IMG/VR virus record: IMGVR_UViG_3300044798_000668
Location: 1-29,921 of that record
DNA length: 29,921 nucleotides
Source of the DNA: a virus
Strand: one strand, 5' to 3'
Positions within the stretch are counted from its first letter, which is position 1; the number at the start of each line of letters is the position of its first letter. A program made the position numbers and the translations under genes. Of the stretch, positions 6,780 to 29,921 are shown one piece after another. Below the pieces are notes generated by a model, which made no database searches, had not been told where the DNA came from, and saw only the letters and a list, made by a program, of their open reading frames with translations.

Positions 6780-7140
6780 ACTTGCGCGACAGCTCGGACA
6801 GTTTCCGTTCACAAAGCTGAAGCCACGGAGCTTTCGACTTGCAATTGCAGGCCTCAGCACGCGCGAACTCGAGACGCATCCCGTCAAGGTCTGGGTTGAA
6901 GTTGACGACATCGGCAAAGTCGTCAAGATCGCGGGTTTCGCTCGCGTCCTACGCGCCTATCCACATCTCAACTTCGTCTATCTCGAAACCTACGCAAGTC
7001 ACCTTGCATCGCTTGTCAGGAGCGATCTTGTGCGTTCGGTTTGGAACGATGAACCTGTGAGAGCTGAGGGCTGTGTGGTCACTGAAACGTATTCAAGCGC
7101 CCGCGCTCTGGCGCTTGGGTTTCACGGGCGACCGTGTTAG
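6769..7140 (+). CDS. Subtilase propeptide-like protein
   Basis: A 123-residue ORF starting at an ATG at 6769 behind GGAGG (6754-6758); the open frame extends further upstream but that part is a shadow of the previous gene. Residues 36-95 have the alternating pattern of a subtilisin propeptide (I9 type): VKVWVEVDDIGKVV, a helix, then a segment like 'L..L..sdlV.sVW.DepV'. Such domains normally sit at the N-terminus of the protease and act as folding chaperone and inhibitor. The protease catalytic domain starts in a different frame at 7073, so the two are separate ORFs here. There is no signal peptide. The last 25 residues overlap the protease and are probably not functional. Confidence 0.5.
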   Translation: MAGELARQLGQFPFTKLKPRSFRLAIAGLSTRELETHPVKVWVEVDDIGKVVKIAGFARVLRAYPHLNFVYLETYASHLASLVRSDLVRSVWNDEPVRAEGCVVTETYSSARALALGFHGRPC

Positions 7141-8011
7141 GGTCGGCGTTGTCGGCACCGGTGTAGATCTTGCGCATCCAGACTTTGCAAGCTGTACAAT
7201 TAACGCCTTCAGTCTCGTCGGTTCGGATGTGAGCGATTCGGTGGGCCATGAGACAGGCATTGTTTGGTTGATCACGCGTATCGCTCCGCGAGCGGATGTT
7301 GTGGTCGCGAAGGATCGCATAGGCGCATACGGATACATGCACCAAGTCATAGATGCATGCGAGCGTCTGCGCCAACTTGGCGTTCAGATCGTGAACCTCT
7401 CAGTTGCGACCGACTTCCCAACAGACGGAACGGACCCGATCAGCCGAGAAGCAAACTATCTTGCTGAGAATGGTATTGTCGTCGTCACGGCAGCAGGCAA
7501 CAGGGGTCCCCGGTTTCAGACGATTGGCGCTCCTGGAGCTGCTGAACACGCTCTTACGGTTGGCAAGACGAACGATCGCGACCAGGTAAGTTGGGATAGT
7601 TCACGTGGTCCCACACTCGATGGCCGCCCAAAACCTGACTGCGTGGCACCGGGCGCTCGAATAATGGCTGCATCCCCACTTGCTCTACACAAGGGTGCAT
7701 ACTTCACCTTCGATTGTACGAGCTACGCGGTCCCGCACGTCGTCGGCACGCTTGCCCTACTGAAGGAAGCAAGTCCCGACGCCACGGCAAGCGCTCTGAA
7801 ACAAGCGATCATGGCGGGATGCGAACCAGCGAAACCATCCCTTCTCTCACGAACCGTCGGGCGATCTAGCTTCCGCGAGCGGCTTGCAACCAAGCTCAGT
7901 GTTGGTTTCGCAAGTCATGCAGACCCTCGGTGGAGCGCTGGCGTGGGTCGTGTGAACGCGTATCGAGCGTATGAGTGGTTGAGGAAGAATGAATCGACGA
8001 GTCCTAGTTGA
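7073..8011 (+). CDS. Subtilisin-like (S8) protease domain, catalytic Asp replaced
   Basis: A 312-residue protein that begins exactly where an S8 catalytic domain normally begins (WSLKRIQAPALWRLGFTGD). The His motif is GHET (H59), the oxyanion Asn is in AAGNRGP (N143), and the Ser motif is CTSYAVPHVVG (S217). The Asp motif, normally DTG, reads GTG (G28, codon 7154-7156), so the triad Asp is missing; GAC to GGC is a one-base change. The GTG start at 7073 follows GAGG at four bases, so independent translation is possible. A +1 shift between 7061 and 7137 would fuse it to the upstream propeptide. It may be an inactive binding protein, or the sequence may contain an error. Confidence 0.8.
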   Translation: MWSLKRIQAPALWRLGFTGDRVRVGVVGTGVDLAHPDFASCTINAFSLVGSDVSDSVGHETGIVWLITRIAPRADVVVAKDRIGAYGYMHQVIDACERLRQLGVQIVNLSVATDFPTDGTDPISREANYLAENGIVVVTAAGNRGPRFQTIGAPGAAEHALTVGKTNDRDQVSWDSSRGPTLDGRPKPDCVAPGARIMAASPLALHKGAYFTFDCTSYAVPHVVGTLALLKEASPDATASALKQAIMAGCEPAKPSLLSRTVGRSSFRERLATKLSVGFASHADPRWSAGVGRVNAYRAYEWLRKNESTSPS

Positions 8012-8332: not shown

Positions 8333-8689
8333 TTGAGCCGCAAGGATCCGTATGAGATCTGTACCATCTGCGAGACTATGCATCCCGCATCTGAGATGTG
8401 CGACAAATACGTTCGAAACGCGGAGACTAGTCTACCAGTACGCCTGCGCATCTGCCACTCGTGCCTGCATCCACGAATCACATACATTCAGAGCCGGATG
8501 CTACCAGCATTCGCGTTTGATGTGCCGCGAACTCTCATGGCGGCGCTCGCAAGTGTGCTTGTTGCGTTGAATGTGATCTTCGGCCTCATCATTGGCGGTT
8601 CTGTGGGTTTCGCTGTCGCGTTGAGCGGAATCATGGTTGGTGCGGGGATCCTCGTGGCGGTGGCGGCATCATGCATCCAATCCTCTTAG
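8333..8689 (+). CDS. Zinc-finger membrane protein
   Basis: A 118-residue protein with a TTG start two bases after the previous stop. C10-T-I-C13 and C41-H-S-C44, with C23 between them, form a probable zinc-binding head of about 45 residues. Two hydrophobic helices follow (about 66-85 and 88-114). A cytoplasmic zinc-ribbon head on a helical hairpin is a common adaptor design in archaea. It overlaps the next gene by 19 bases. Function is unknown. Confidence 0.6.
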   Translation: MSRKDPYEICTICETMHPASEMCDKYVRNAETSLPVRLRICHSCLHPRITYIQSRMLPAFAFDVPRTLMAALASVLVALNVIFGLIIGGSVGFAVALSGIMVGAGILVAVAASCIQSS

Positions 8690-9192
8690 TCGCGCTTGTC
8701 ATGATTGCCCAAGTGAACCCGAGCGTCACCGTAAGCACTGACAAGGGCTGGTACAGTCCCGGGGAACAAGTCATAGTTCGCGTCTCCACCACAGGCTTCG
8801 TCTCGAGTGAGCGGCTTTGGCTCTACGTGGACAAGCCTGACGGCCATAATCTCTACTTCACAGAACTATCCGCCTGTGGCGACACCATCATCGTGACACT
8901 ACCTCAGGATGTGCCTGACGGCATCTACACGATCACCGTCACGTGGGACCACAGATACGTAGAGACAGGATTCGTCGTCAAGAGCCAACCCGTTCCCGAG
9001 TTTCCCTTCACATTCTTGGTGTTGATTCTTGCCCTCGCGGTTGCGTCTACTGCCGTATCTCGGCGGAAAGCAAGCGTTAGTGCCGAGACTGTTGCCTTTG
9101 ATCCCCGAGCACACATGTTATGTCGAGGTGTTCGGCGGCGCCGCTGCGCTTCTCTTGAACAAGCCTCCGAGTCCCGTGGAGGTCTACAATGA
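8671..9192 (+). CDS. Secreted Ig-like protein with PEF-type membrane anchor
   Basis: A 173-residue protein. Residues 1-15 are a signal peptide-like segment, 16-104 a beta-sandwich with the pattern of an MG2/Ig-like domain (STDKGWYSPGEQVIVRVS, then DVPDGIYTITVTW), and 108-133 the sorting signal: VPEFP, a hydrophobic helix and RRK. VPEFP anchors are characteristic of surface proteins in many archaea and are the main host clue in the window. A 40-residue tail follows the RRK; it lies wholly within the overlap with the methyltransferase gene and is probably a by-product of it. The protein would be displayed on the outer face of the host membrane. Confidence 0.7.
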   Translation: MHPILLVALVMIAQVNPSVTVSTDKGWYSPGEQVIVRVSTTGFVSSERLWLYVDKPDGHNLYFTELSACGDTIIVTLPQDVPDGIYTITVTWDHRYVETGFVVKSQPVPEFPFTFLVLILALAVASTAVSRRKASVSAETVAFDPRAHMLCRGVRRRRCASLEQASESRGGLQ

Positions 9193-9904: not shown

Positions 9905-10414
9905 TTGCACGGTAAGGGTACGCCCTTCTTCTCGCTGAGGCTCCCGAAGGCCATTCGAGCTAGGCTGGAAAGCGACGCAACAGACCTCGGCGTGACCTCA
10001 TCGGGCTACGTTCGCGCAATCCTGGTGGCCCACCTGAGCCTCGGAAGACGAGAGAATCAGGGTGTGATACACCCTGTGTCACATTCCGATCTTGACCACG
10101 CCGTGAAGCGGTTCCTGCTCGCCTACCACATGAGCGTCTCGGTAGCCGGTCTACCAGGTAAGGAGAGACGGAACGACCTCGAGGGGCTCAGCTGGACGGC
10201 CGTCGAGGAGGCTGTCAAATTCGCCAAAGCCCAGGAAGACCCCATCGTGCGCCTCTTGGCGATGCGGGTCGTCAGTTCGCTCATCCGCACCGAACTAGCC
10301 ATCCTACATGAGCAGGATCAAGCCTACGTCGACGAACTCGTCGCGGAAGTAGAGGCTAACCGCCGTGAGCTTGAAGCGAAAATTAGAGCGATCGCGGGAA
10401 GGAAAGCGTCTTGA
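9905..10414 (+). CDS. Ribbon-helix-helix protein, probable small terminase subunit
   Basis: A 169-residue protein with a TTG start. Residues 7-47 fit a ribbon-helix-helix domain (FFSLRLPKAIRARLESDATD, then GVTSSGYVRAILVAHL). The remainder is helical, ending in a charged helix (VDELVAEVEANRRELEAKIR) suited to oligomerisation. Position directly before, and overlapping by 50 bases, the large terminase gene is what is expected of a small terminase that recognises the packaging site. The fold and position support that role; no direct homologue is recognised, and a transcriptional regulator is the alternative. Confidence 0.55.
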   Translation: MHGKGTPFFSLRLPKAIRARLESDATDLGVTSSGYVRAILVAHLSLGRRENQGVIHPVSHSDLDHAVKRFLLAYHMSVSVAGLPGKERRNDLEGLSWTAVEEAVKFAKAQEDPIVRLLAMRVVSSLIRTELAILHEQDQAYVDELVAEVEANRRELEAKIRAIAGRKAS

Positions 10415-11261
10415 GGCAAACGCCACGCCCGACGCCTTTCTCCGCCTCAAAGAGATCGCTGCAAAGGGCGTTGTCCCATTCTGCCGTGAAGCTCTAGGTT
10501 TCGATCCTACAGACTATCAGGTGAGATTTCTCCAAGACACGGGGCAGTTCATAGCGCAGTGCTGGTGTCGACAGTCCGGGAAAGACCACTCGGCCTCCAG
10601 CAAGTTCTTCTGGTATGCGGTTGACAATGACGCGGTCCAACTCGCCGTCGTCGGCCCAAGCTTCCGGCAAAGCAAACTCGTGATCCGCAAGATCAACTCC
10701 TTCATCCAGAACAAGCTGCCCGAGGACATTCCCTACCGCGAGGTCATAGTCGGCCGAAAACTCCTGAGAACCAAGGTCGCCTTGGTCAACGGATCGGTGA
10801 TCGAGGCCTACCCCTGCAACGCCGACACGATCAGGGGGCCCACGCTCAACGGGATCCTGGCGACGGAGTTCAACTTCGTCAGAGACGACGAGGACCTATA
10901 TGATGCGATTCTCTTCACGCTTGGCACGACCAACGGCTTCTTGATAGCAAACTCGACGCCCTGGTCTCGGGATCATCTCTTCTACAAGATGTGCAAGGAC
11001 CCGGACTTTAGCGACTTCAAGTGCTCCCACGTCACCTGGGAAGACGCGCAGGAACCGAAGGGCCCGCTCAAGAAGAGCATACTTGCGAAGATCAGGAAAC
11101 AGCTTGCCGCCGACCCTTGGCGATGGCAGCGTGAGATGGAAGCCGAATGGAGCGAAGACGAGTCAAGCTGGCTCCCGCAGACACTGATCGGCCAATGCCA
11201 GGACAGCATGCTCGAGATCCGCCTGATCGATAAACGTCACAGCTTCTGGACCGTGAACTGA
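10365..11261 (+). CDS. Large terminase, ATPase part
   Basis: A 298-residue protein carrying the packaging ATPase domain. The adenine-binding Q motif is at TDYQVRFLQ (49-57), Walker A at CRQSGKDHS (68-76), a Walker B-like strand at GILATEF (163-169) with E168 but Thr in place of the usual Asp, and the coupling motif ANSTPW at 195-200. The C-terminal WRWQREMEAEWSEDESSWL is the usual bridge into the nuclease domain, yet the ORF stops 36 residues after that. The nuclease domain is encoded by a separate downstream ORF. The GTG start overlaps the upstream gene. ATPases of this type drive DNA into the prohead at the portal. Confidence 0.88.
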   Translation: MSLKRKLERSREGKRLEANATPDAFLRLKEIAAKGVVPFCREALGFDPTDYQVRFLQDTGQFIAQCWCRQSGKDHSASSKFFWYAVDNDAVQLAVVGPSFRQSKLVIRKINSFIQNKLPEDIPYREVIVGRKLLRTKVALVNGSVIEAYPCNADTIRGPTLNGILATEFNFVRDDEDLYDAILFTLGTTNGFLIANSTPWSRDHLFYKMCKDPDFSDFKCSHVTWEDAQEPKGPLKKSILAKIRKQLAADPWRWQREMEAEWSEDESSWLPQTLIGQCQDSMLEIRLIDKRHSFWTVN

Positions 11262-11446: not shown

Positions 11447-12016
11447 TTGGCTGCGACGATTCCCGAACTCACCGGCAACTTCTACGTCGGCGTCGACCTT
11501 GCAAAGAAGGAAGATTTCACCGCTGTCGCGGTGCTAAGAAAAGACGAGGATGCGTTTCGGCTCGTCCACCTGAATGTGTTTCCGCAAGGCACCGAGTACG
11601 TGGGCATCATCAACTACTTGAAAGCGCTCAGCGAGCGGCTCAAGACAATTCATCGCTTCCTCGTCGACCAGACAGGCGTTGGGGAGGCTGTCCTTGAGCA
11701 AGCACAGAAAACCGTGCCCAACATCGAAGGCGTTGTGTTGACGGCGCCGCAGAAACAGGACATCCTCGGATATCTGAAGTTGATGATGCAGGAGCGCCGC
11801 GTGCTCTTCCCATACGAGCTCGACTTTCTCCAGGAACTGAATGTAGAACGCTTCGAGCTATCGAAGTCAGGGCAAGTCCTGTTCTCGCATCCGGCTGGAA
11901 CGCATGACGATCGCTTGTGGGCATTTGCCCTTGCCGTCTTCGCGACAAAGGCGACGCCGTATCCGCAGCTGAAACGTTCCCACACGACATGGCTTGATCG
12001 TTCAACCTCCTCTTGA
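11447..12016 (+). CDS. Large terminase, nuclease part
   Basis: A 189-residue protein with the RNase H-like fold of terminase nucleases: strand NFYVGVDLAKKEDFTAVAVL with D17, a second acidic site at FLVDQTGVGE (D74), and HDDRLWAFALAVFA near the end (D154/D155). These acidic residues bind two metals and cut concatemeric DNA. TTG 11447 is the first usable start, about nine bases after GGTGG. The stop overlaps the region just before the portal start. In most viruses this domain is fused to the ATPase; here it would have to associate with it in trans unless the transcript is processed. Confidence 0.85.
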   Translation: MAATIPELTGNFYVGVDLAKKEDFTAVAVLRKDEDAFRLVHLNVFPQGTEYVGIINYLKALSERLKTIHRFLVDQTGVGEAVLEQAQKTVPNIEGVVLTAPQKQDILGYLKLMMQERRVLFPYELDFLQELNVERFELSKSGQVLFSHPAGTHDDRLWAFALAVFATKATPYPQLKRSHTTWLDRSTSS

Positions 12017-21316: not shown

Positions 21317-21325
21317 GTGAGAGAA

Positions 21326-24148
21326 ATGTCTAGCAGCTCGCTTGGAAGCGTAGTTATCGCCATCAAGGCGGTCGATGAGGCTTCCGGCGTTATGGGAAAG
21401 ATTCAGGCTAGCATGAGCCTTGTCGGTGGTCAACTTAGCCAACTAGGCGGCGGCTTCGCTCAAGTCGGCGGGGTGATTCAAGGCTTTGCAGCGGGTGGTG
21501 TGGCTGGTGCCGCCGTTGTCGCTGTTGGTGAAATTGCTAAAGGCCTTCAAGACTGTATCAGGGAAGCGACATCTTCTGAGGCTATCTTTGCAAGCCTCGG
21601 CGCCGCAGTAACCCGATCCGGTGTAGCATGGGACACTGTGAGCGCAGCTACGAAGAACGCTCTGCTTGCCATGCAGAAGACGACCACATACAGCGACGAG
21701 GAACTGGCGGCTGCGCTTGAGCGGCTGATGACTTTCGGCCTCTCATACGACGATGCGATGAAGGCGCTCGGCAAGACCCTTGACTTCGCATCAGCAAAAC
21801 ACATGGCCTTGGAATCAGCCGCTACACTTGTCGGCAAAGCGATGGATGGCAACACCACGATTCTGAAGCGGTACGGTGTCGATATTGCAACCTCGAAGGA
21901 TGCGGCTGCAGCTCTAACAGCCGCGCATGACGCGGCAGCCAAAGCAATCAAGGCAATGGGCGCAGGTGTTGATGCTTGGGTCACTTCAGTCACAGCAGCA
22001 ATCGGTGCGGACTCAGCCTTTGAATCGGGCCTAGCAGGCGCGAAGGACAAGGCGCAATATCTAATCGATCAATTCAAGCAAGGCAACATTGACCTGCCCC
22101 AATTCACGCAGGCGATGATCTCTCTCGGAGTTCCACTTGACGAAGCCAAAATGAAAGGCGGCACCGCAGCCGAAGTCCTAGCGAAACTGAATGAACAATT
22201 CGGAGGCGCAGCCCAAGCCGCAGCGAGCACCTACGCAGGAATCCAAGAACGCCTCAAGAACGCAACTAGCGAAGTGGGAGAGAAGATCGGCACTATCTTC
22301 CTTCCCGCTCTCGCCTCAATGACTGAGGCTATGATTCCTATCGTTGATTCATTTGGCAAGGGGATCGATGCTATCAGTTCTTGGCTGACCGAAGTTGGCA
22401 AGATGCCTGAAGTTCAAGGAATCGTCACGGCTGTTGGGGAAGCATTCGGTGGCTTCATGAAGTACCTGCAAGACCTCTGGGGTTTCATCGTTGAGCAATT
22501 CAGTCCAGTCCTCACAGAGTTGATGGGCGCCTTCAAGGAACTATGGGACGCGCTCTCACCGATAGGCGAAGCGATCAGCGAGATCATGGCTGCCTTCGGC
22601 GACGCGGGAGATGTTGACCTGCTCAAGATCGCGGTGCAGGCGATAGTGCTAGAGATCAAGGGACTCGTGGAAATCATCAAAATAGTTGTACCAGTCATCA
22701 AAACGTTCGCAGATGCTTTCAAGGCCGCAGCGGATTTCATCACGCCGATTCTGAAGCAGGTCGGAGATGGAATCAGAACATTCCTCGATGACCTCAAGAC
22801 TGCTTTCCAAGGCTTCTACAACTGGCTTGTCGGCGGCTCGCTTTGGGTTGATCTTTGGAACAAGATGCTTAGCATCGCCTCAAACGTGATCGGTCAACTC
22901 ATCGGGGCGCTCTCAAGTAGCCTATTCGGCCCGTTACAGTCAGCCTTCGAGGCGGGTATCAGTGCAGTCGCGGCATTATGGGATGCTGGTTGGCAGGGCG
23001 TTCAAGGAACCTTCGAGACAGTCATTGGCGCGATTCAAACATCAGTCAACACGAATTTCGACGCGATCAAGAACTATGTCCAAACTAGCACGGGCGAGTA
23101 TGCTCCGATCGCAACCGAAGCCTTGAACGGAATGGAGGCGGCGGTCAATGCAGGGCTGGATCTAATTCACGGCGACTGGAAAGGCGCTCTCGACGAACTC
23201 AATACGATGCTAACCAGTTTCGGGGCAGCCGCTCAAGATACAATCGGACTCATCTTCACGAATCTGGAGGGCGTCTTGACAAGCGGTATCGCTGGCATGA
23301 AGTCTCTCTGGGATGGCTTCGTGTCAGGCCTCTCAAGCGCGATCCAGAAGATCGGTCAAGCCTTCGGATGGGTTGCCAACGCAATCGCTGGCGGTTCCGC
23401 GCAGGCCAGCTCCACGACTTCAGATGCCATGTCAACGGTCACAGACGCTATCACTGGCGCTATTGAAGGCGCTCAAGCTGTGACGCAGGATGGCATGAAC
23501 GCCGTCACAGGAGCTTTCAGCTCGGCTTTCGACACGGTTAGCAACGCCGCTTCCGGCTTCTGGAACTGGCTTGTCGGTGGTTCCATCTGGCCTGAAGGCA
23601 TGGACCAAATCGCGCAGTCAACATTGGCAGGAATGGACGTCGTCGTATCCGTTCTATCTGAAAGGCTCACTACGATGATGGTTCTGATCGAAGAAGGCCT
23701 GACCTCCGTCGCAAATTCTTGGTATGACACTTTCACCTACCTAGTCTCAGTCACGGATGGAGCGATGAGCGCTGTCGTCGGACGAATGCAGTGGGCCGTC
23801 AACGAGATCAAGAGGCTCGCCAAAGAACTTCAAGACGCGATGGTTACTCACTCAATCTGGCCTGATATGCTCTCGGAGATGCAGAGCCAAACCTATGCGG
23901 CGCTCGGCAACATCGTAGGCGCCTTCAATGGCATGACGCTCGCCATTCCTGCGACTCTCCCATACACGGCCGCTACCAGTTCAACTCCGACAGCAGCGCC
24001 TCCAACAAGATCATCTGAGCAATCGTTCGCCGCGCAGCAAAGCATCACGATTCCGATCACGGTCACGCTTGACGGTGAAGTCATCCGCCGCCAGGTGGAG
24101 CAGCGAATCGTTAGGACAGTTCTGAATCGTGGAAAGAAGGTCGCATAA
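21326..24148 (+). CDS. Tape measure protein
   Basis: A 940-residue protein, starting at ATG 21326 behind AGGTGA rather than at a GTG nine bases earlier. It is long, helical and Ala/Gly-rich, and the largest gene in the window, directly after the chaperone frameshift gene, as a tape measure must be. The N-terminus has a Gly-rich hydrophobic stretch near residues 30-70. The motif F-x-x-WLVGGS-x-W occurs near residues 500 and 750 and a related HSIWPDM near 845. Its length implies a tail of roughly 140 nm at 1.5 angstroms per helical residue. Confidence 0.92.
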   Translation: MSSSSLGSVVIAIKAVDEASGVMGKIQASMSLVGGQLSQLGGGFAQVGGVIQGFAAGGVAGAAVVAVGEIAKGLQDCIREATSSEAIFASLGAAVTRSGVAWDTVSAATKNALLAMQKTTTYSDEELAAALERLMTFGLSYDDAMKALGKTLDFASAKHMALESAATLVGKAMDGNTTILKRYGVDIATSKDAAAALTAAHDAAAKAIKAMGAGVDAWVTSVTAAIGADSAFESGLAGAKDKAQYLIDQFKQGNIDLPQFTQAMISLGVPLDEAKMKGGTAAEVLAKLNEQFGGAAQAAASTYAGIQERLKNATSEVGEKIGTIFLPALASMTEAMIPIVDSFGKGIDAISSWLTEVGKMPEVQGIVTAVGEAFGGFMKYLQDLWGFIVEQFSPVLTELMGAFKELWDALSPIGEAISEIMAAFGDAGDVDLLKIAVQAIVLEIKGLVEIIKIVVPVIKTFADAFKAAADFITPILKQVGDGIRTFLDDLKTAFQGFYNWLVGGSLWVDLWNKMLSIASNVIGQLIGALSSSLFGPLQSAFEAGISAVAALWDAGWQGVQGTFETVIGAIQTSVNTNFDAIKNYVQTSTGEYAPIATEALNGMEAAVNAGLDLIHGDWKGALDELNTMLTSFGAAAQDTIGLIFTNLEGVLTSGIAGMKSLWDGFVSGLSSAIQKIGQAFGWVANAIAGGSAQASSTTSDAMSTVTDAITGAIEGAQAVTQDGMNAVTGAFSSAFDTVSNAASGFWNWLVGGSIWPEGMDQIAQSTLAGMDVVVSVLSERLTTMMVLIEEGLTSVANSWYDTFTYLVSVTDGAMSAVVGRMQWAVNEIKRLAKELQDAMVTHSIWPDMLSEMQSQTYAALGNIVGAFNGMTLAIPATLPYTAATSSTPTAAPPTRSSEQSFAAQQSITIPITVTLDGEVIRRQVEQRIVRTVLNRGKKVA

Positions 24149-26380
24149 ATGCCAGTCAGTAAAACAATCAACGGGTTAGTCGCTGAGATCACATGTGATG
24201 TCGCGCCTGGATATGCGACGAACTTGGCCTCGTCTATAATTGCTGACACGACTACGAAAAAAGAGGGGTTAGCCAGCACCAAGCAGTACGGTGTAACGAC
24301 TGTGCCTGCTGCTTGGGGCGTTGCCTATGCGGCATGGGCTAACGTTCCAATGGCAAACGGGGACCTAATTCGTTTCTGGCATAAATCGACTGACGCGAAA
24401 CATAATTGGGGTATCATGGCTTTCGCAGGTTTCCCCTATAACCCTCCCGTAGATGGCCGGCCAGACGTCAACTGCGCTGTAACGGACGGCGCATTCAATC
24501 GTTGGTCGGGGGGTCCGACGCCGCATGATTTTCGGCGGTACACTCGGTATGGGTCTTTCACTGAGCCACAGTTTCACGGTGAATATTGGGATGGCCTCAT
24601 AACTGGCAGACTGAACGGGATTGAAGATTGGACCGTCCGCGAGTACACTGTGGACTGGTGTACGGCTTATGATTATGTCCAAGCATTATACTACCTAATC
24701 GAATCAGGACAAGACGTGACTCCTGGCAATGAGCCGGGCACAGTACCTTTCCAACAGAACTGGGCCGACTGGATTGACCATATCGTCGTCTGCACTGGCC
24801 ACGATCTCACATTCACGGGTCTCTTGCCTGGCCAGAAGGTCGAGATGTATCGCTCGCCTAGCACGAAAATCTATGAGCAGACATGCGGTGGTGGAGCGGC
24901 ATCTGTCATCTTCGACCTATCTGCAGACGATTTCCCCATGAACGGGTACTTCAAAGTCTATGCGACTGACGGCGTTACGCTGATTGAAGTCACTCCCGTC
25001 GTCCGATTCAGCGGCGGCGACACCTGGTACTGGGTCAGCCCATACGGCACGATGAAGGCTGAGACATCAGCATTCGTCATCATTCGCCAGTCAGGCTCAG
25101 GAACGCCAAAGTCCGCAACGATCACCGCGACGCTCCTGAAACCAGATACGACACCAGGGGTAGGGAAGACGCTCTATTTCACAACAAGTAAAGGCTCAGT
25201 CATCCCGACATCGGCCGTCACCAATTCAAACGGTCAATGCCAGACGGTCTTGACCAGCAACGATCACGGCCTAGCAGTCGTCAAGATCAACTGGCCAGGC
25301 GATACTGATGTCCCTGCTTGCATGACATGGGCCGTTCACCATGTCCTCTACACGGCCGAGGTGGCCGACGCGACGAAGAAGTATCAGCTCTTCATTGAAG
25401 GCGTCGAACTCGATTATGATACTGGTTACTATTCGCTTTCAACGGAGACTGAGCCTCAAGAATTCGAGGCCACAATACCCGCATGGAACGCCCTAATCCT
25501 ACCCATGTCGCTTGTCTCAATCTACCGCTGGGGCATCAAAGAATACTCTGGCATCCTCACTGGAATCGAGCGGGACATGGGAACTGATCTGCCCGTGATT
25601 CTTTCAGGCATGGATTCAAAGATGTTGCTTGCTGATAGAGTGATCACGCTCAAAGACTACCTCGATTGGCCTCTAGCAGACCTGCTGGATGATATTCTCG
25701 ACACATATCCTTGCGGTATAACCCTTGGAACGGTCGGTGAATATCCAAGCAACATCAACGTCACTTTCTCAGATGAGAATATTGTCTCATCAGTAAGCCG
25801 CCTGACTGGCGACATTCTAGGATGGCTCTATCGCGTCGCCATTGGTAACGAGCTTGAGGTCATGTCATCGTTCGGTGCAGCGAAGCCCAACATTGTTTTC
25901 GAGCAGGGCGTCTCAATGTTCAACGCGAAGTATCGTCTGAACTACACTGAAATGTCAAACAGTGTTCGCGCTAGAGGTAAAGAAACACTCGTCAGCACGA
26001 TCTTCGATCCCGCCTCGATTGAGGAATTGGGAATCAAAGAGAATGTGGCCTTCCAGAAATCTATCGACGTGCAAGGGACGCTAGATTTGTTCGCGCAGAC
26101 GGAGCTTGCCAAACAAATCGGTGCGGCGGTCGAGATTTCCTGCGATGTTATCGACTCCGCGTATGAAGCGGGAAGCTGGGGCATTGACGACTGGGTTGTG
26201 TTGACCGCTGCCGAAGCCTCTCTCTCAGACCTTTACAAGGTGGTTAAGATCAATCGGGACATGAGAGACCCGAACACCGCAACAATCCAGTGTTCAAACC
26301 GATTCTCGGTTGAGCTGAGCGACGTGATTGATAAGTTCAGGCGCGAGCTGAAGGACTTGAGCGCCAAATCCACGATTTGA
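24149..26380 (+). CDS. Tail hub protein with lectin-like and Ig-like parts
   Basis: A 743-residue protein starting at the base after the tape-measure stop. Residues 1-230 resemble a jelly-roll, carbohydrate-binding module (Trp- and Asp-rich, for example IEDWTVREYTVDWCTAYDYV). Residues 320-395 look like an Ig/Big-type domain (TTSKGSVIPTSAVTNSNGQC). Residues 405-743 have the pattern of a siphovirus hub (YSGILTGIERDMG, then SGMDSKMLLADRVITLKDYL). The protein would close the tail tip and may make the first contact with the host surface. Fusion of a hub to an N-terminal lectin-like domain is notable. Confidence 0.65.
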   Translation: MPVSKTINGLVAEITCDVAPGYATNLASSIIADTTTKKEGLASTKQYGVTTVPAAWGVAYAAWANVPMANGDLIRFWHKSTDAKHNWGIMAFAGFPYNPPVDGRPDVNCAVTDGAFNRWSGGPTPHDFRRYTRYGSFTEPQFHGEYWDGLITGRLNGIEDWTVREYTVDWCTAYDYVQALYYLIESGQDVTPGNEPGTVPFQQNWADWIDHIVVCTGHDLTFTGLLPGQKVEMYRSPSTKIYEQTCGGGAASVIFDLSADDFPMNGYFKVYATDGVTLIEVTPVVRFSGGDTWYWVSPYGTMKAETSAFVIIRQSGSGTPKSATITATLLKPDTTPGVGKTLYFTTSKGSVIPTSAVTNSNGQCQTVLTSNDHGLAVVKINWPGDTDVPACMTWAVHHVLYTAEVADATKKYQLFIEGVELDYDTGYYSLSTETEPQEFEATIPAWNALILPMSLVSIYRWGIKEYSGILTGIERDMGTDLPVILSGMDSKMLLADRVITLKDYLDWPLADLLDDILDTYPCGITLGTVGEYPSNINVTFSDENIVSSVSRLTGDILGWLYRVAIGNELEVMSSFGAAKPNIVFEQGVSMFNAKYRLNYTEMSNSVRARGKETLVSTIFDPASIEELGIKENVAFQKSIDVQGTLDLFAQTELAKQIGAAVEISCDVIDSAYEAGSWGIDDWVVLTAAEASLSDLYKVVKINRDMRDPNTATIQCSNRFSVELSDVIDKFRRELKDLSAKSTI

Positions 26381-26462: not shown

Positions 26463-26681
26463 ATGAGCAGAAAGACTAACCATTCTAATGTACGGTCGGC
26501 AAGCCGCGAATTATTCGCTGTGATGAACGACTGGTGGAAGATCCGCGAGACGTCATCGGGACTCTACGAGTTGTCAGCAAGAGACGGCTCTAGCAAACTT
26601 GCCCCGATAGACGGTAAGTCGCTGACTGGTCTTCTCGCGGTGATCAGTGAACTTGACCGACACTTGCACGTGGGGAGGTGA
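26463..26681 (+). CDS. Small hypothetical tail-region protein
   Basis: A 72-residue protein with an ATG that is not preceded by a strong ribosome site. The centre (MNDWWKIRETSSGLYELSAR, then DGSSKLAPIDG) looks like a small beta domain followed by a helix (SLTGLLAVISELDRHLHV). Its stop overlaps the open frame of the next gene. A structural or chaperone role is likely from position only. Confidence 0.5.
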   Translation: MSRKTNHSNVRSASRELFAVMNDWWKIRETSSGLYELSARDGSSKLAPIDGKSLTGLLAVISELDRHLHVGR

Positions 26682-26689
26682 AACAAGAC

Positions 26690-27256
26690 ATGGATACACA
26701 AGAATTAGGACCAGGCATGGATTTGGCAGGTGCTCTGGCTCTCGTCCACGCCGCAGATCACCCGATCATGATCAGGCGACACTGGAAGATTGAGAAATAC
26801 CTCGGCGACTTCAAGGAAGCCAAAGACATCCCCAAAGACCTGAAGCCCTACGCTACCGTAGACTTCGAAGGTAATGTACTCTTGAACGAGGGAATTAATG
26901 AGCTTTGGACGCTTGTCGCTGGAACGGGTGCGACGAAGTTCGACAGCGGTAACGCGTACATAGGCATCGGCGACTCTAGCGCGACCCCGACAGATCCTAC
27001 CCTGACGGGACTACAGGCCGCAACGAACAAACTCTACAAGGCGATGGATAGTTCATACCCTACGTATGGATCTTCACAGAAGGCTACATGGCGCAGCACG
27101 TTCGGAGTAGATGACGCGAACTGGGCCTGGAATGAGATCACAGTCGCGAACGGCGGCTCGAATGCAGCGAAGAACCTGAACCGCAAAGTACAGGCAATGG
27201 GCACGAAGGCCAGTGGAACAACATGGGTTTGCACATTGGAGATCACGGTCACGTAG
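26690..27256 (+). CDS. Minor tail or fibre-associated protein
   Basis: A protein of 188 residues from ATG 26690, twelve bases after GGGGAGG; a GTG four codons earlier overlaps the ribosome site and is less likely. It has the pattern of a widespread phage structural protein: LLNEGINELWTLVAGTGATK, then AYIGIGDSSATPT, LQAATNKLYKAMDSSYPT and a final block ending TWVCTLEITVT. Such proteins are found among tail-tip and fibre genes, but a precise role is not known. Confidence 0.65.
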   Translation: MDTQELGPGMDLAGALALVHAADHPIMIRRHWKIEKYLGDFKEAKDIPKDLKPYATVDFEGNVLLNEGINELWTLVAGTGATKFDSGNAYIGIGDSSATPTDPTLTGLQAATNKLYKAMDSSYPTYGSSQKATWRSTFGVDDANWAWNEITVANGGSNAAKNLNRKVQAMGTKASGTTWVCTLEITVT

Positions 27257-27334: not shown

Positions 27335-28345
27335 TTGAATCATGGTTTAAACTTCTTCACGAACGCAGTGGATAAGACCCCGGCTGCGGGGTCATGGCAG
27401 ACCGTTGACGTCAGCGCCAATGGAGTGCCAGTCGGTGCAAGTGGTGTGATCCTAGATATCCACAATACCCACGGTTCAACCGTATACAAGGCCGACGTCC
27501 GAAAGAAAGGCAGCTCAGACGATGACTATGCGAACGGGAAGATCGCCGCCACGAATGTCGGCTCTTCCCATGGATATGCGATGGTAGGCATTGATGGGAA
27601 CCGCCAATTCGAAGCCTACATCGAAAATGCGACATACATCAAGATTTGGCTTGTCGGATACACTGGGGATGGTGTGGTCTACTTCCTCAACAAGAAGGGC
27701 TACCAGATGGGTACGACAATCACGTGGGTTGACATCAACCCGAGCGCCGACGTGCCTGCTGGCGCAACAGGAGTCATCATGAAGATAATCAACACTGCAA
27801 CAGCGTCCTACAAGGGCTCAGTACGAAAGAATGGAAGCAGTGATGACGATAATGCTACTTCGAATATCTTAGCCAATGCTTCGATTTGGGCCATGTGCGG
27901 GGTTGATGCAGACCGGCTACTTGAAGGCTACATCGGCAACACACTTGTAGATCACTATCTTGTCGGATACTTCTCGTCAACTTCAAAAGTTATCTTCAAA
28001 ACAAATTGGGTTGATAAGACCCTAGCGGGAACTGGATGGCAAGATTTAGATCTGACCGCAGACACATCCGCGATTGCTGACGGAGCCATATTCCGTTTGC
28101 GCCAAGGAGCAGGCGCCGCGCGGGACGAGATACGAAAGAAGGGCAGTGGAGATGATCGAAATGCCTCCGCGGTGATAGCCAGCACTTGTCACGTTTGGGC
28201 TCTCACCGGTCTGGACGCTGACCAGGTATGCCAAACATACTGTAGCGACATGACCTTCGCGAAGTTCTATTTGATGGCCTACCATGACCCTGTCGTCGTT
28301 CCAACCGTGACAACTCAGGCGGCAAGCGGCCTCGGACTAGACTAG
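27335..28345 (+). CDS. Repeat-built tail fibre protein with split fibronectin end
   Basis: A 336-residue protein with a TTG start nine bases after GGAG. It is made of three related units of about 105 residues, each with R-K-K/N-G-S-S/G-D-D (residues 56-63, 164-171, 267-274) and then a GxDxxR..EGYI..YLVGY-like strand block. The last 15 residues (VPTVTTQAASGLGLD) are the first strand of a fibronectin type III domain whose remainder begins in the next ORF, in the same frame. The stop codon is TAG (28343-28345). The units are likely beta-sandwich modules exposed on the tail fibre. Confidence 0.65.
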   Translation: MNHGLNFFTNAVDKTPAAGSWQTVDVSANGVPVGASGVILDIHNTHGSTVYKADVRKKGSSDDDYANGKIAATNVGSSHGYAMVGIDGNRQFEAYIENATYIKIWLVGYTGDGVVYFLNKKGYQMGTTITWVDINPSADVPAGATGVIMKIINTATASYKGSVRKNGSSDDDNATSNILANASIWAMCGVDADRLLEGYIGNTLVDHYLVGYFSSTSKVIFKTNWVDKTLAGTGWQDLDLTADTSAIADGAIFRLRQGAGAARDEIRKKGSGDDRNASAVIASTCHVWALTGLDADQVCQTYCSDMTFAKFYLMAYHDPVVVPTVTTQAASGLGLD

Positions 28346-28363
28346 GAATGAGGCCACCGAATC

Positions 28364-29557
28364 TTGACGGCTAAGGCGACATGCAACGGCAACATCACTG
28401 CAATAGGTGGAGAGAACTGTACAAGTCGCGGGTTCGAATGGGGTCTAGTTCAAGGCGGTCCTTACGGGAATAGTTGGACAGAAAACGGTGACTTCGGTAC
28501 AGGCACGTTCAGTCACGAGTTCACAGGGCTCGTTGAGAACACGGTTCATTACTATCGCGCGAAAGCCTACAATTCCGCTGGATGGGGCTATGGTGGCGAG
28601 CAGTCGTTCACGACATGGAAAGCAGTTAACGCACCAGATACGGGCAGCGGCACCGAAGCCCCAGGCATCAGCGCCCAAATTGCCTACACCGAGACGGGTG
28701 CGGGTGTGGAGAGCACCCCGACGCCTCAAGGCCAGATCAGCCTGACAGACTTAGGGGCGGCTACAGAGAGCGCCCTTCTCGAAGGATCACAAACTCTTTC
28801 AGATATAGGAACAGGAATAGAAGTACCGATAATCGATTCCACTGCAACAGTGACGATCAGTGACTCAGGGGCAGGAGTAGAGAGCCTTGTAACCGTCACC
28901 GCATCCTTCACAATCTCTGATGTCGGTGCGGATGTTGACGCTATAACGATAGAGCTTCCGATCATAGATGCAGGAAGCGGGGCTGATGTTTGGGGCCTAG
29001 CCACGTCGTTCACTGCGACAGACTCAGCATCCGGCATTGAGACTTGGGGTGAAACCGCATCTTTTACCATCTCAGACTTTGCAAGTGGAACTGATGTTCG
29101 ATCGGTCACGGCCACTTTCAGTATTTTCGACGTAGGCTCGGGCATAGATAGCCTCAATATCCTGCTTCCGCCGTTGACGATCACCGACACAGGGTTCGGG
29201 GTTGACATCACATATCGAGTGCAGGGCCAATTACTCATCGACGATGCCCCCCTACCCCATATTGATTCACTCGACATCGCTGAGCCCTCAATCATGCTAA
29301 GCAAGCCAAGAACAACAGGTGTGCCGGAACGCCTATGGCGAGGAAAAAGAGGCCGCGAAGTTGCCATCAAGGGCCGCACCGATACGGTTGCCGAAATCGA
29401 AGCGATCAAAGCCCTCAACGATGGAGAACCGCATCTACTGATTCTGCCGACAGGAGATTCATTCTATGTCTTGGTCCTAGAAGCCAAGCCTGATAACACG
29501 GTGGAATCACCAAGTCAGATCGCCTACGCAATCACCGCGAAGGAGGTCACGACCTAG
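28364..29557 (+). CDS. Fibre protein with fibronectin-like head and 18-residue repeats
   Basis: A 397-residue protein with a TTG start nine bases after GAGG. Residues 5-84 are a fibronectin-like domain (ATCNGNITAIGGENCTSRGF, then YYRAKAYNSAGWGYGGEQSF) lacking its first strand, which lies at the end of the upstream ORF. Residues 92-285 hold about eleven repeats near 18 residues long with the core D-x-G-x-G-x-D/E. Residues 335-393 are a compact alpha-beta domain (TVAEIEAIKALNDG, then LLILPTGDSFYVLVLEA) similar in pattern to the next gene. It probably forms the shaft of a fibre. Confidence 0.65.
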   Translation: MTAKATCNGNITAIGGENCTSRGFEWGLVQGGPYGNSWTENGDFGTGTFSHEFTGLVENTVHYYRAKAYNSAGWGYGGEQSFTTWKAVNAPDTGSGTEAPGISAQIAYTETGAGVESTPTPQGQISLTDLGAATESALLEGSQTLSDIGTGIEVPIIDSTATVTISDSGAGVESLVTVTASFTISDVGADVDAITIELPIIDAGSGADVWGLATSFTATDSASGIETWGETASFTISDFASGTDVRSVTATFSIFDVGSGIDSLNILLPPLTITDTGFGVDITYRVQGQLLIDDAPLPHIDSLDIAEPSIMLSKPRTTGVPERLWRGKRGREVAIKGRTDTVAEIEAIKALNDGEPHLLILPTGDSFYVLVLEAKPDNTVESPSQIAYAITAKEVTT

Positions 29558-29558
29558 C

Positions 29559-29921
29559 ATGACTACGTTCGGAGGTTTGCCGCTTCCTCATGTCTTGGAT
29601 ATTCAGACTACAAAGTCCCGAATTATGATCGACCGGGACCTGCCGTATGGATCAGTGGCATACCGCGCCGACGACCGCGACCTCGGCCAATCCTTCATCC
29701 TCACAGGCGAGATCAGAGAGACAACCATCGATGCCGTGTACACTCAGATCGAGCGAATCAGGCGGTTGAACGACGGGGCCGCCAGAAGCCTTGATCTTGA
29801 AGATGGAAACACCACGATCACCAGTAAGCTAACTGACCCATCATTCAACTTCGCAGCTGAGAACTGGTTCACCGGCAAGTATCACGTTCCCTATCAGGTC
29901 ACGTTTTTGGAGGTTGCGTAG
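29559..29921 (+). CDS. Small tail-tip protein related to the preceding fibre's end
   Basis: A 120-residue protein ending on the last base of the window. TTIDAVYTQIERIRRLNDGA, then a strand (RSLDLEDGNTTITSKL) and YHVPYQVTFLEVA repeat the layout of residues 335-393 of the preceding protein, so the two probably share a fold. Such domains occur at the tail tip. It starts two bases after the previous stop. It is complete but the operon may continue beyond the window. Confidence 0.55.
   Translation: MTTFGGLPLPHVLDIQTTKSRIMIDRDLPYGSVAYRADDRDLGQSFILTGEIRETTIDAVYTQIERIRRLNDGAARSLDLEDGNTTITSKLTDPSFNFAAENWFTGKYHVPYQVTFLEVA

Follow-up and report, generated by a model that had tools for sequence, protein, structure and literature searches.

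The window analysed here, an entire IMG/VR record of 29,921 bp (54% G+C) that is possibly a fragment of a virus, contains a fibronectin-type (FN3-like) domain which is distributed over two neighbouring tail genes. We conclude with high confidence that this locus encodes two separately started tail proteins and not one broken fibre. Separate initiation is indicated because two in-frame stops lie between the halves, the frame relation of the halves varies among related loci, and the second start codon is placed at a fixed residue of the domain. With moderate confidence we further propose that the two proteins dock, in that the first contributes its strand A in trans to the FN3 domain of the second, which is thereby completed.

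The features of the locus are summarized in Table 1. An earlier note on this DNA had described a fibronectin-type domain split by TAG GAA TGA in one frame. Direct reading confirms this description, as does the read-through frame, which gives a single FN3-profile match that crosses the junction and extends from position 4 to position 113 (profile A3, which includes the window's own row; E 4.5e-42). This match contains one TAG and one TGA.

Table 1. Coordinates of the split-domain locus in the window.
Feature	Position	Strand	Details
Upstream tail protein	27335..28345	+	336 aa, TTG start, TAG stop; direct reading and ORF list
C-terminal tail VPTVTTQAASGLGLD, corresponding to FN3 strand A	28298..28342	+	sole PTVTTQ match in the record
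TAG GAA TGA, two in-frame stops located in the A-B loop	28343..28351	+	TAG 28343-28345, GAA 28346-28348, TGA 28349-28351
GAGG, possible Shine-Dalgarno, 10 nt ahead of TTG	28350..28353	+	15.7% of random window 20-mers equal or better
TTG start codon	28364..28366	+	position homologous to the ATG of L011, L013 and L033
FN3 strands B-G without strand A, N-terminus of the downstream protein	28364..28618 (end approximate)	+	alignment and profile
Downstream tail protein, 397 aa	28364..29557	+	ORF in frame 0 relative to ORF 27335..28345

Because Pfam yielded no match for the 111-aa stretch even at E<=10, the domain, with strand A and strands B-G read together, is termed FN3-like on the basis of its predicted fold and of a profile search against the PDB. 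Foldseek searches with the model of the read-through domain returned PDB FN3 domains as best matches (best E 3.5e-5), with phage FN3 matches as well, and the A3 profile matched FN3 proteins in the PDB including NCAM, titin and contactin chains. Among the fold matches obtained for the half without strand A, PDB 4m6a (E 2.7e-2) bears the title 'N-Terminal beta-Strand Swapping in a Consensus Derived Alternative Scaffold...'; we take this scaffold to be FN3-based. The read-through domain is predicted by AF2 with a mean pLDDT of 90.7. Its first ten residues reach a pLDDT of 95, a strand is placed at residues 9-16, and the junction residues 21-30 show a pLDDT of 61.

The same cut, which falls in the loop linking strand A to strands B-G, is present in four loci, namely the window, L011, L013 (= L002) and L033. 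The three relatives are two IMG/VR contigs and one metagenome-assembled genome (MAG) of Chloroflexota (L033). In L013 the upstream ORF ends in VPTVTTQAVDNIGFD-TGA and one base later ATG-AAHGTLHGSIT begins; L011, found via a pattern scan, reads GPTVTTQAATTIEEY-TAG-A-ATG-PVRATFNGNIT, and the Chloroflexota MAG reads PPTVTTQEVDGIGTE-TAA-A-ATG-SAHGTLHGTIT. In all four loci the distance from PTVTTQ to the stop amounts to eight codons, and the start codon occupies the same aligned residue, 11 residues ahead of the T of a GNIT-like motif. Each of the four records holds one PTVTTQ match and one FN3 domain devoid of strand A. The window differs from the other three in the frame relation, since its stop is followed after 18 nt by a TTG in frame 0, whereas L011, L013 and L033 show a stop-N-ATG arrangement with a gap of 1 nt and the second half in the +1 frame. 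As to retrieval, the pattern that led to L011 had both PTVTTQA and a stop at this position built in, and L013 was most probably retrieved by way of the VVPTVTTQ pattern. L033 was obtained with the downstream half only and is the sole relative unbiased for the tail. The domain search gave eight loci (one split, seven fused), and the 31 loci of later searches comprised 28 fused and three split ones, the latter being L033 together with L017 and L018, whose contigs are those of L011 and L013.

Cuts at an ORF boundary are rare in this domain, and the split goes beyond chance. A scan with a profile of fused domains, which leaves the window out, yielded 152 FN3 matches in 51 sources, counted after dropping overlapping or near-identical loci and chance matches. 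Hereof 127 were full, 16 were partial inside an ORF, 5 were cut by contig ends and 4 were truncated at the ORF start. The last four are the window, L011, L013 and L033, all of which begin at profile positions 21-25, and L011 alone among them had been fetched via a pattern for a stop at that place. In the FN3 arrays of L035 and L037, several matches are interrupted at profile positions 65-71 and continue only after 100 or more residues, which gives the impression of an additional domain inserted in the FN3 loop.

Whole-protein searches with both window proteins against viral_contigs and phages returned no relative, and the 111-aa domain did match; against phage records it gave three matches, two of which (H1, H3) lie uncut inside long ORFs. 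The tail-plus-stop pattern gave seven stretches, two of them real (L011, L013) and five unrelated (L010, L012, L014, L015, L016). A start-position pattern gave three stretches (L011, L013, L048), of which L048 is fused. The NSAGWxYG pattern found L013 alone, a query with the L033 domain led back to the L013 contig and to no other, and phage searches with the L033 and L011 domains gave no match. In Chloroflexota, A1 matched in 10 of 400 genomes; among the matches listed, all but G001's sit in open frames of 414 aa or more. Seven of the loci in such frames were looked at (L050, L051, L053, L054, L056, L057, L058), of which L050 is fused, and the profile scan, which took in a single locus per place from these genomes, revealed no truncation at an ORF start in them. 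Within the class of G001, A2 matched in 4 of 393 genomes at 1e-18 and a relaxed start pattern in 2 of 393 (G001 and G613). Portal and capsid searches in eight related records, carried out without a positive control, found none.

The upstream proteins of the four loci show substantial similarity only in their last 12-18 residues. L013 and the window match at 72% over 18 aa (E 6.5e-5); all other matches are weak, at E 0.012 or above, and the strongest one overlaps the tail. In the PTVTTQ codons, all six pairs show 0 non-synonymous and 2-5 synonymous differences, in a comparison for which two of the three relatives had been found through that very motif. Since the codon differences are always synonymous in the six pairs, they point to selection acting on the PTVTTQ peptide, and part of this codon divergence may predate the splits. 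The downstream proteins have the B-G half in common; L013 and L033 share forty or so more residues, and the downstream proteins of L013 and the window match at ~30% over 231 aa. Judged by eye, the C-terminal part of the window's downstream protein (28640-29557) also looks like the next small protein (29559-29921), as if a module had been duplicated.

Comparison with fused homologues, the check that had been suggested for this locus, provided fused counterparts for two bodies and in part for the window. In L023, a complete FN3 domain and an L033-type body (46% over 219 aa) are encoded in one ORF, and the gene ahead of it resembles, by eye, the gene ahead of the L033 body. The L013-type body occurs in fused form in L021 (51% over 128 aa), and none of the loci compared gave a fused counterpart of the L011 body. 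The upstream body of the window matches part of a fused viral ORF in L019 at 30% over 302 aa. The part of the window's downstream protein that follows FN3 matches its counterpart in L007, where the fibre ORF is fused (29% over 195 aa), and further upstream L007 carries a relative of the window gene at 26678 (47% over 147 aa).

A tree of the B-G half, which covers 28 of the 35 fused loci (left out were L024, L029, L041 and L044-L047), places the split rows in two groups, L013 with L033 and the window with L011, the latter with the fused L034 inside. The examples of the split are thus four in two groups. A single split clade is disfavoured (AU p 0.028), in a tree with 15 of its 29 inner branches open. 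The clustering of the split and fused labels is not significant, as 77 of 500 shuffles were as low. Alignment A3 comprises 25 of the 28 fused loci of the tree. From this topology, repeated splitting, or one split followed by re-fusion, is possible.

For the two halves we propose the following mechanism. Translation of the first protein stops in the A-B loop of the FN3-like domain, and the second start codon, just ahead of strand B, opens the next protein. The first protein ends in strand A (PTVTTQ...), and the second begins with a B-G domain lacking this strand. We infer that both proteins are made and meet in the virion, where the first protein's strand A would most likely fill the open edge of its partner's domain and thereby join two fibre modules non-covalently. 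Because the strand-A tail is conserved on largely unrelated proteins, completion of a neighbouring domain in trans appears to be its simplest use. In line with the role of an acceptor, the B-G half starts at profile positions 21-25, and the missing strand A is held by the upstream tail.

It is also conceivable, though unlikely, that two proteins are made of which the B-G half folds without strand A, the tail being a leftover, a linker or some other binding motif. The half without strand A is indeed predicted on its own as an FN3-like sandwich (AF2, mean pLDDT 90.1), and the tree shows split and fused forms intermixed, hence some splits may be young. What speaks against this reading is a tail that keeps PTVTTQ, with synonymous change only, on largely unrelated bodies, and that is still carried by L033, which was retrieved without it. 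In the model without strand A, the end blocks show pLDDT values of 87 and 86 at the start and 81 and 61 at the end. With strand A, the corresponding values are 95 and 98 (start) and 97 and 79 (end). Its omission also lowers the quality of the best Foldseek match from E 3.5e-5 to E 3.2e-3. The two models, which differ in alignment and length and of which the read-through one is a covalent chain, so that neither tests docking, agree weakly with completion in trans.

Programmed decoding, by readthrough or frameshift, would yield some full-length fused fibre, similar to the known frameshifted Ig-like and FN3 extensions of phages (PMC5009743, PMC7666168), and the +1 frame of the second half in three relatives would suit a frameshift, though not a plain readthrough. 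We nevertheless regard it as improbable. In the window the second half lies in frame 0 behind two stops that are two codons apart, the +1 frame ends in TGA after eight codons, and no extension in the +1 or -1 frame continues the first ORF. In the +1 cases, inspection by eye revealed no slippery run ahead of the stop. Moreover, the cut lies inside the domain, with the start codon at the identical residue in all four loci. A recent break in a single fibre gene, be it a mutation, an assembly error or a phase switch, is more doubtful still: fused counterparts do exist, but the cut agrees to the residue in all four records, which are distant loci whose upstream proteins are largely unrelated, and no other break at an ORF boundary occurs among the 152 FN3 matches. 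Decoding of UAG as pyrrolysine or another residue can practically be dismissed. A weak PEF-CTERM-like match (E 0.029, below the cut-off) does hint at an archaeal host, but a second stop, TGA, comes two codons later, TAG ends 12 of the 35 ORFs taken as genes and so behaves as a stop, two of the three relatives carry TGA or TAA at the corresponding position, and the window record contains no tRNA gene.

Thus, of the options offered in the earlier note, restart by reinitiation giving two parts fits the four loci, with their start codon at a fixed residue and their varying frame. The options leading to a single long fibre (stop readthrough or a reassigned UAG) fall, as homologues with the same separate genes, named there beforehand as the refuting result, were found; a recent break is poorly supported. 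For the separate start of the second protein, initiation is probably coupled to termination in the stop-N-ATG loci. Shine-Dalgarno-like matches are present in all four loci, with random 20-mers equal or better in 15.7% (window), 8.9, 34.6 and 24.0% of cases; the predicted ribosome sites are no better than background and are therefore putative as initiation signals.

Judged by its gene matches, the surroundings of the split pair in the window are a tail module. A tape measure protein (21317-24148) is followed by a protein (24149-26380) with a sub-threshold Prophage_tail match (29.9 bits, cut-off 31.3), by a phrog_23653 protein (26678-27256) and then by the two split-domain ORFs. In L033, tape measure and Dit genes border the pair at one end and a Prophage_tail hub gene at the other, and for this reason the split pair likely encodes tail-tip proteins. 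A further cut seems to affect the tail hub protein of L033 (5786-5791): the beginning of hub families is matched by the C-terminus of the FN3-half protein, and their continuation by the next ORF, whose TTG overlaps the TGA. Another split gene of the window record is the large terminase, present as two ORFs in different frames and 185 nt apart, with the Terminase_6N ATPase part at 10365-11261 and the Terminase_6C nuclease part at 11447-12016. The window further encodes a Subtilase-family protease at 7073-8011 (PF00082, E 2.6e-31) and, at 8671-9192, a protein with PEFPFTFLVLILALAVASTAVSRRK, which gives the sub-threshold PEF-CTERM match (E 0.029) hinting at an archaeal host.

Docking of the two tail proteins via strand A would, by analogy, act like donor-strand complementation. 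Donor-strand exchange is described for TasA fibres, with chaperone-usher pili named too (PMC9674648). As in these systems, a terminal beta-strand would complete the beta-sandwich of another subunit. Unlike in TasA and pili, the domain in the window is the FN3-like domain of a viral tail protein, the proposed donor is the C-terminal end of another protein, the product of the gene immediately upstream, and fused relatives have the domain in one piece. Programmed frameshift adds Ig-like or FN3 extensions to phage structural proteins (PMC5009743), with SPP1 gp17.1* as an example (PMC7666168). There, too, an FN3-type domain of a tail protein coincides with a translational discontinuity, and in-frame and discontinuous forms both occur in nature. 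In contrast to such extensions, which are added to part of the product, the window is cut inside the domain between strands A and B, the second part has its own start codon, and the frame varies between viruses. Going by its title, PDB 4m6a is similar in that an N-terminal strand is exchanged between molecules, but it is a designed scaffold, whereas the window shows a natural cut between two genes. A limited search of titles and abstract starts in the open-access literature revealed no paper about a naturally split FN3 domain in a phage tail, and likewise none on a donor strand in a phage tail or on a strand-swapped FN3 domain in a bacteriophage.

Beyond this locus, we tentatively suggest, with less than even confidence, that some tailed viruses of uncultured prokaryotes may use a plug-and-socket joint. 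Hereby, strand A would be the plug that ends varying adhesin proteins, the B-G half would be the socket that starts the neighbouring fibre protein, and modules could be swapped without keeping the reading frame. If true, this would represent a donor-strand joint in a viral tail that is made by a gene-level cut of an FN3 domain, and it would explain the combination of unrelated fibre bodies. The two halves would then also provide a natural split-FN3 pair for protein engineering, and the locus would serve as a warning that 'interrupted' fibre genes are not necessarily broken.
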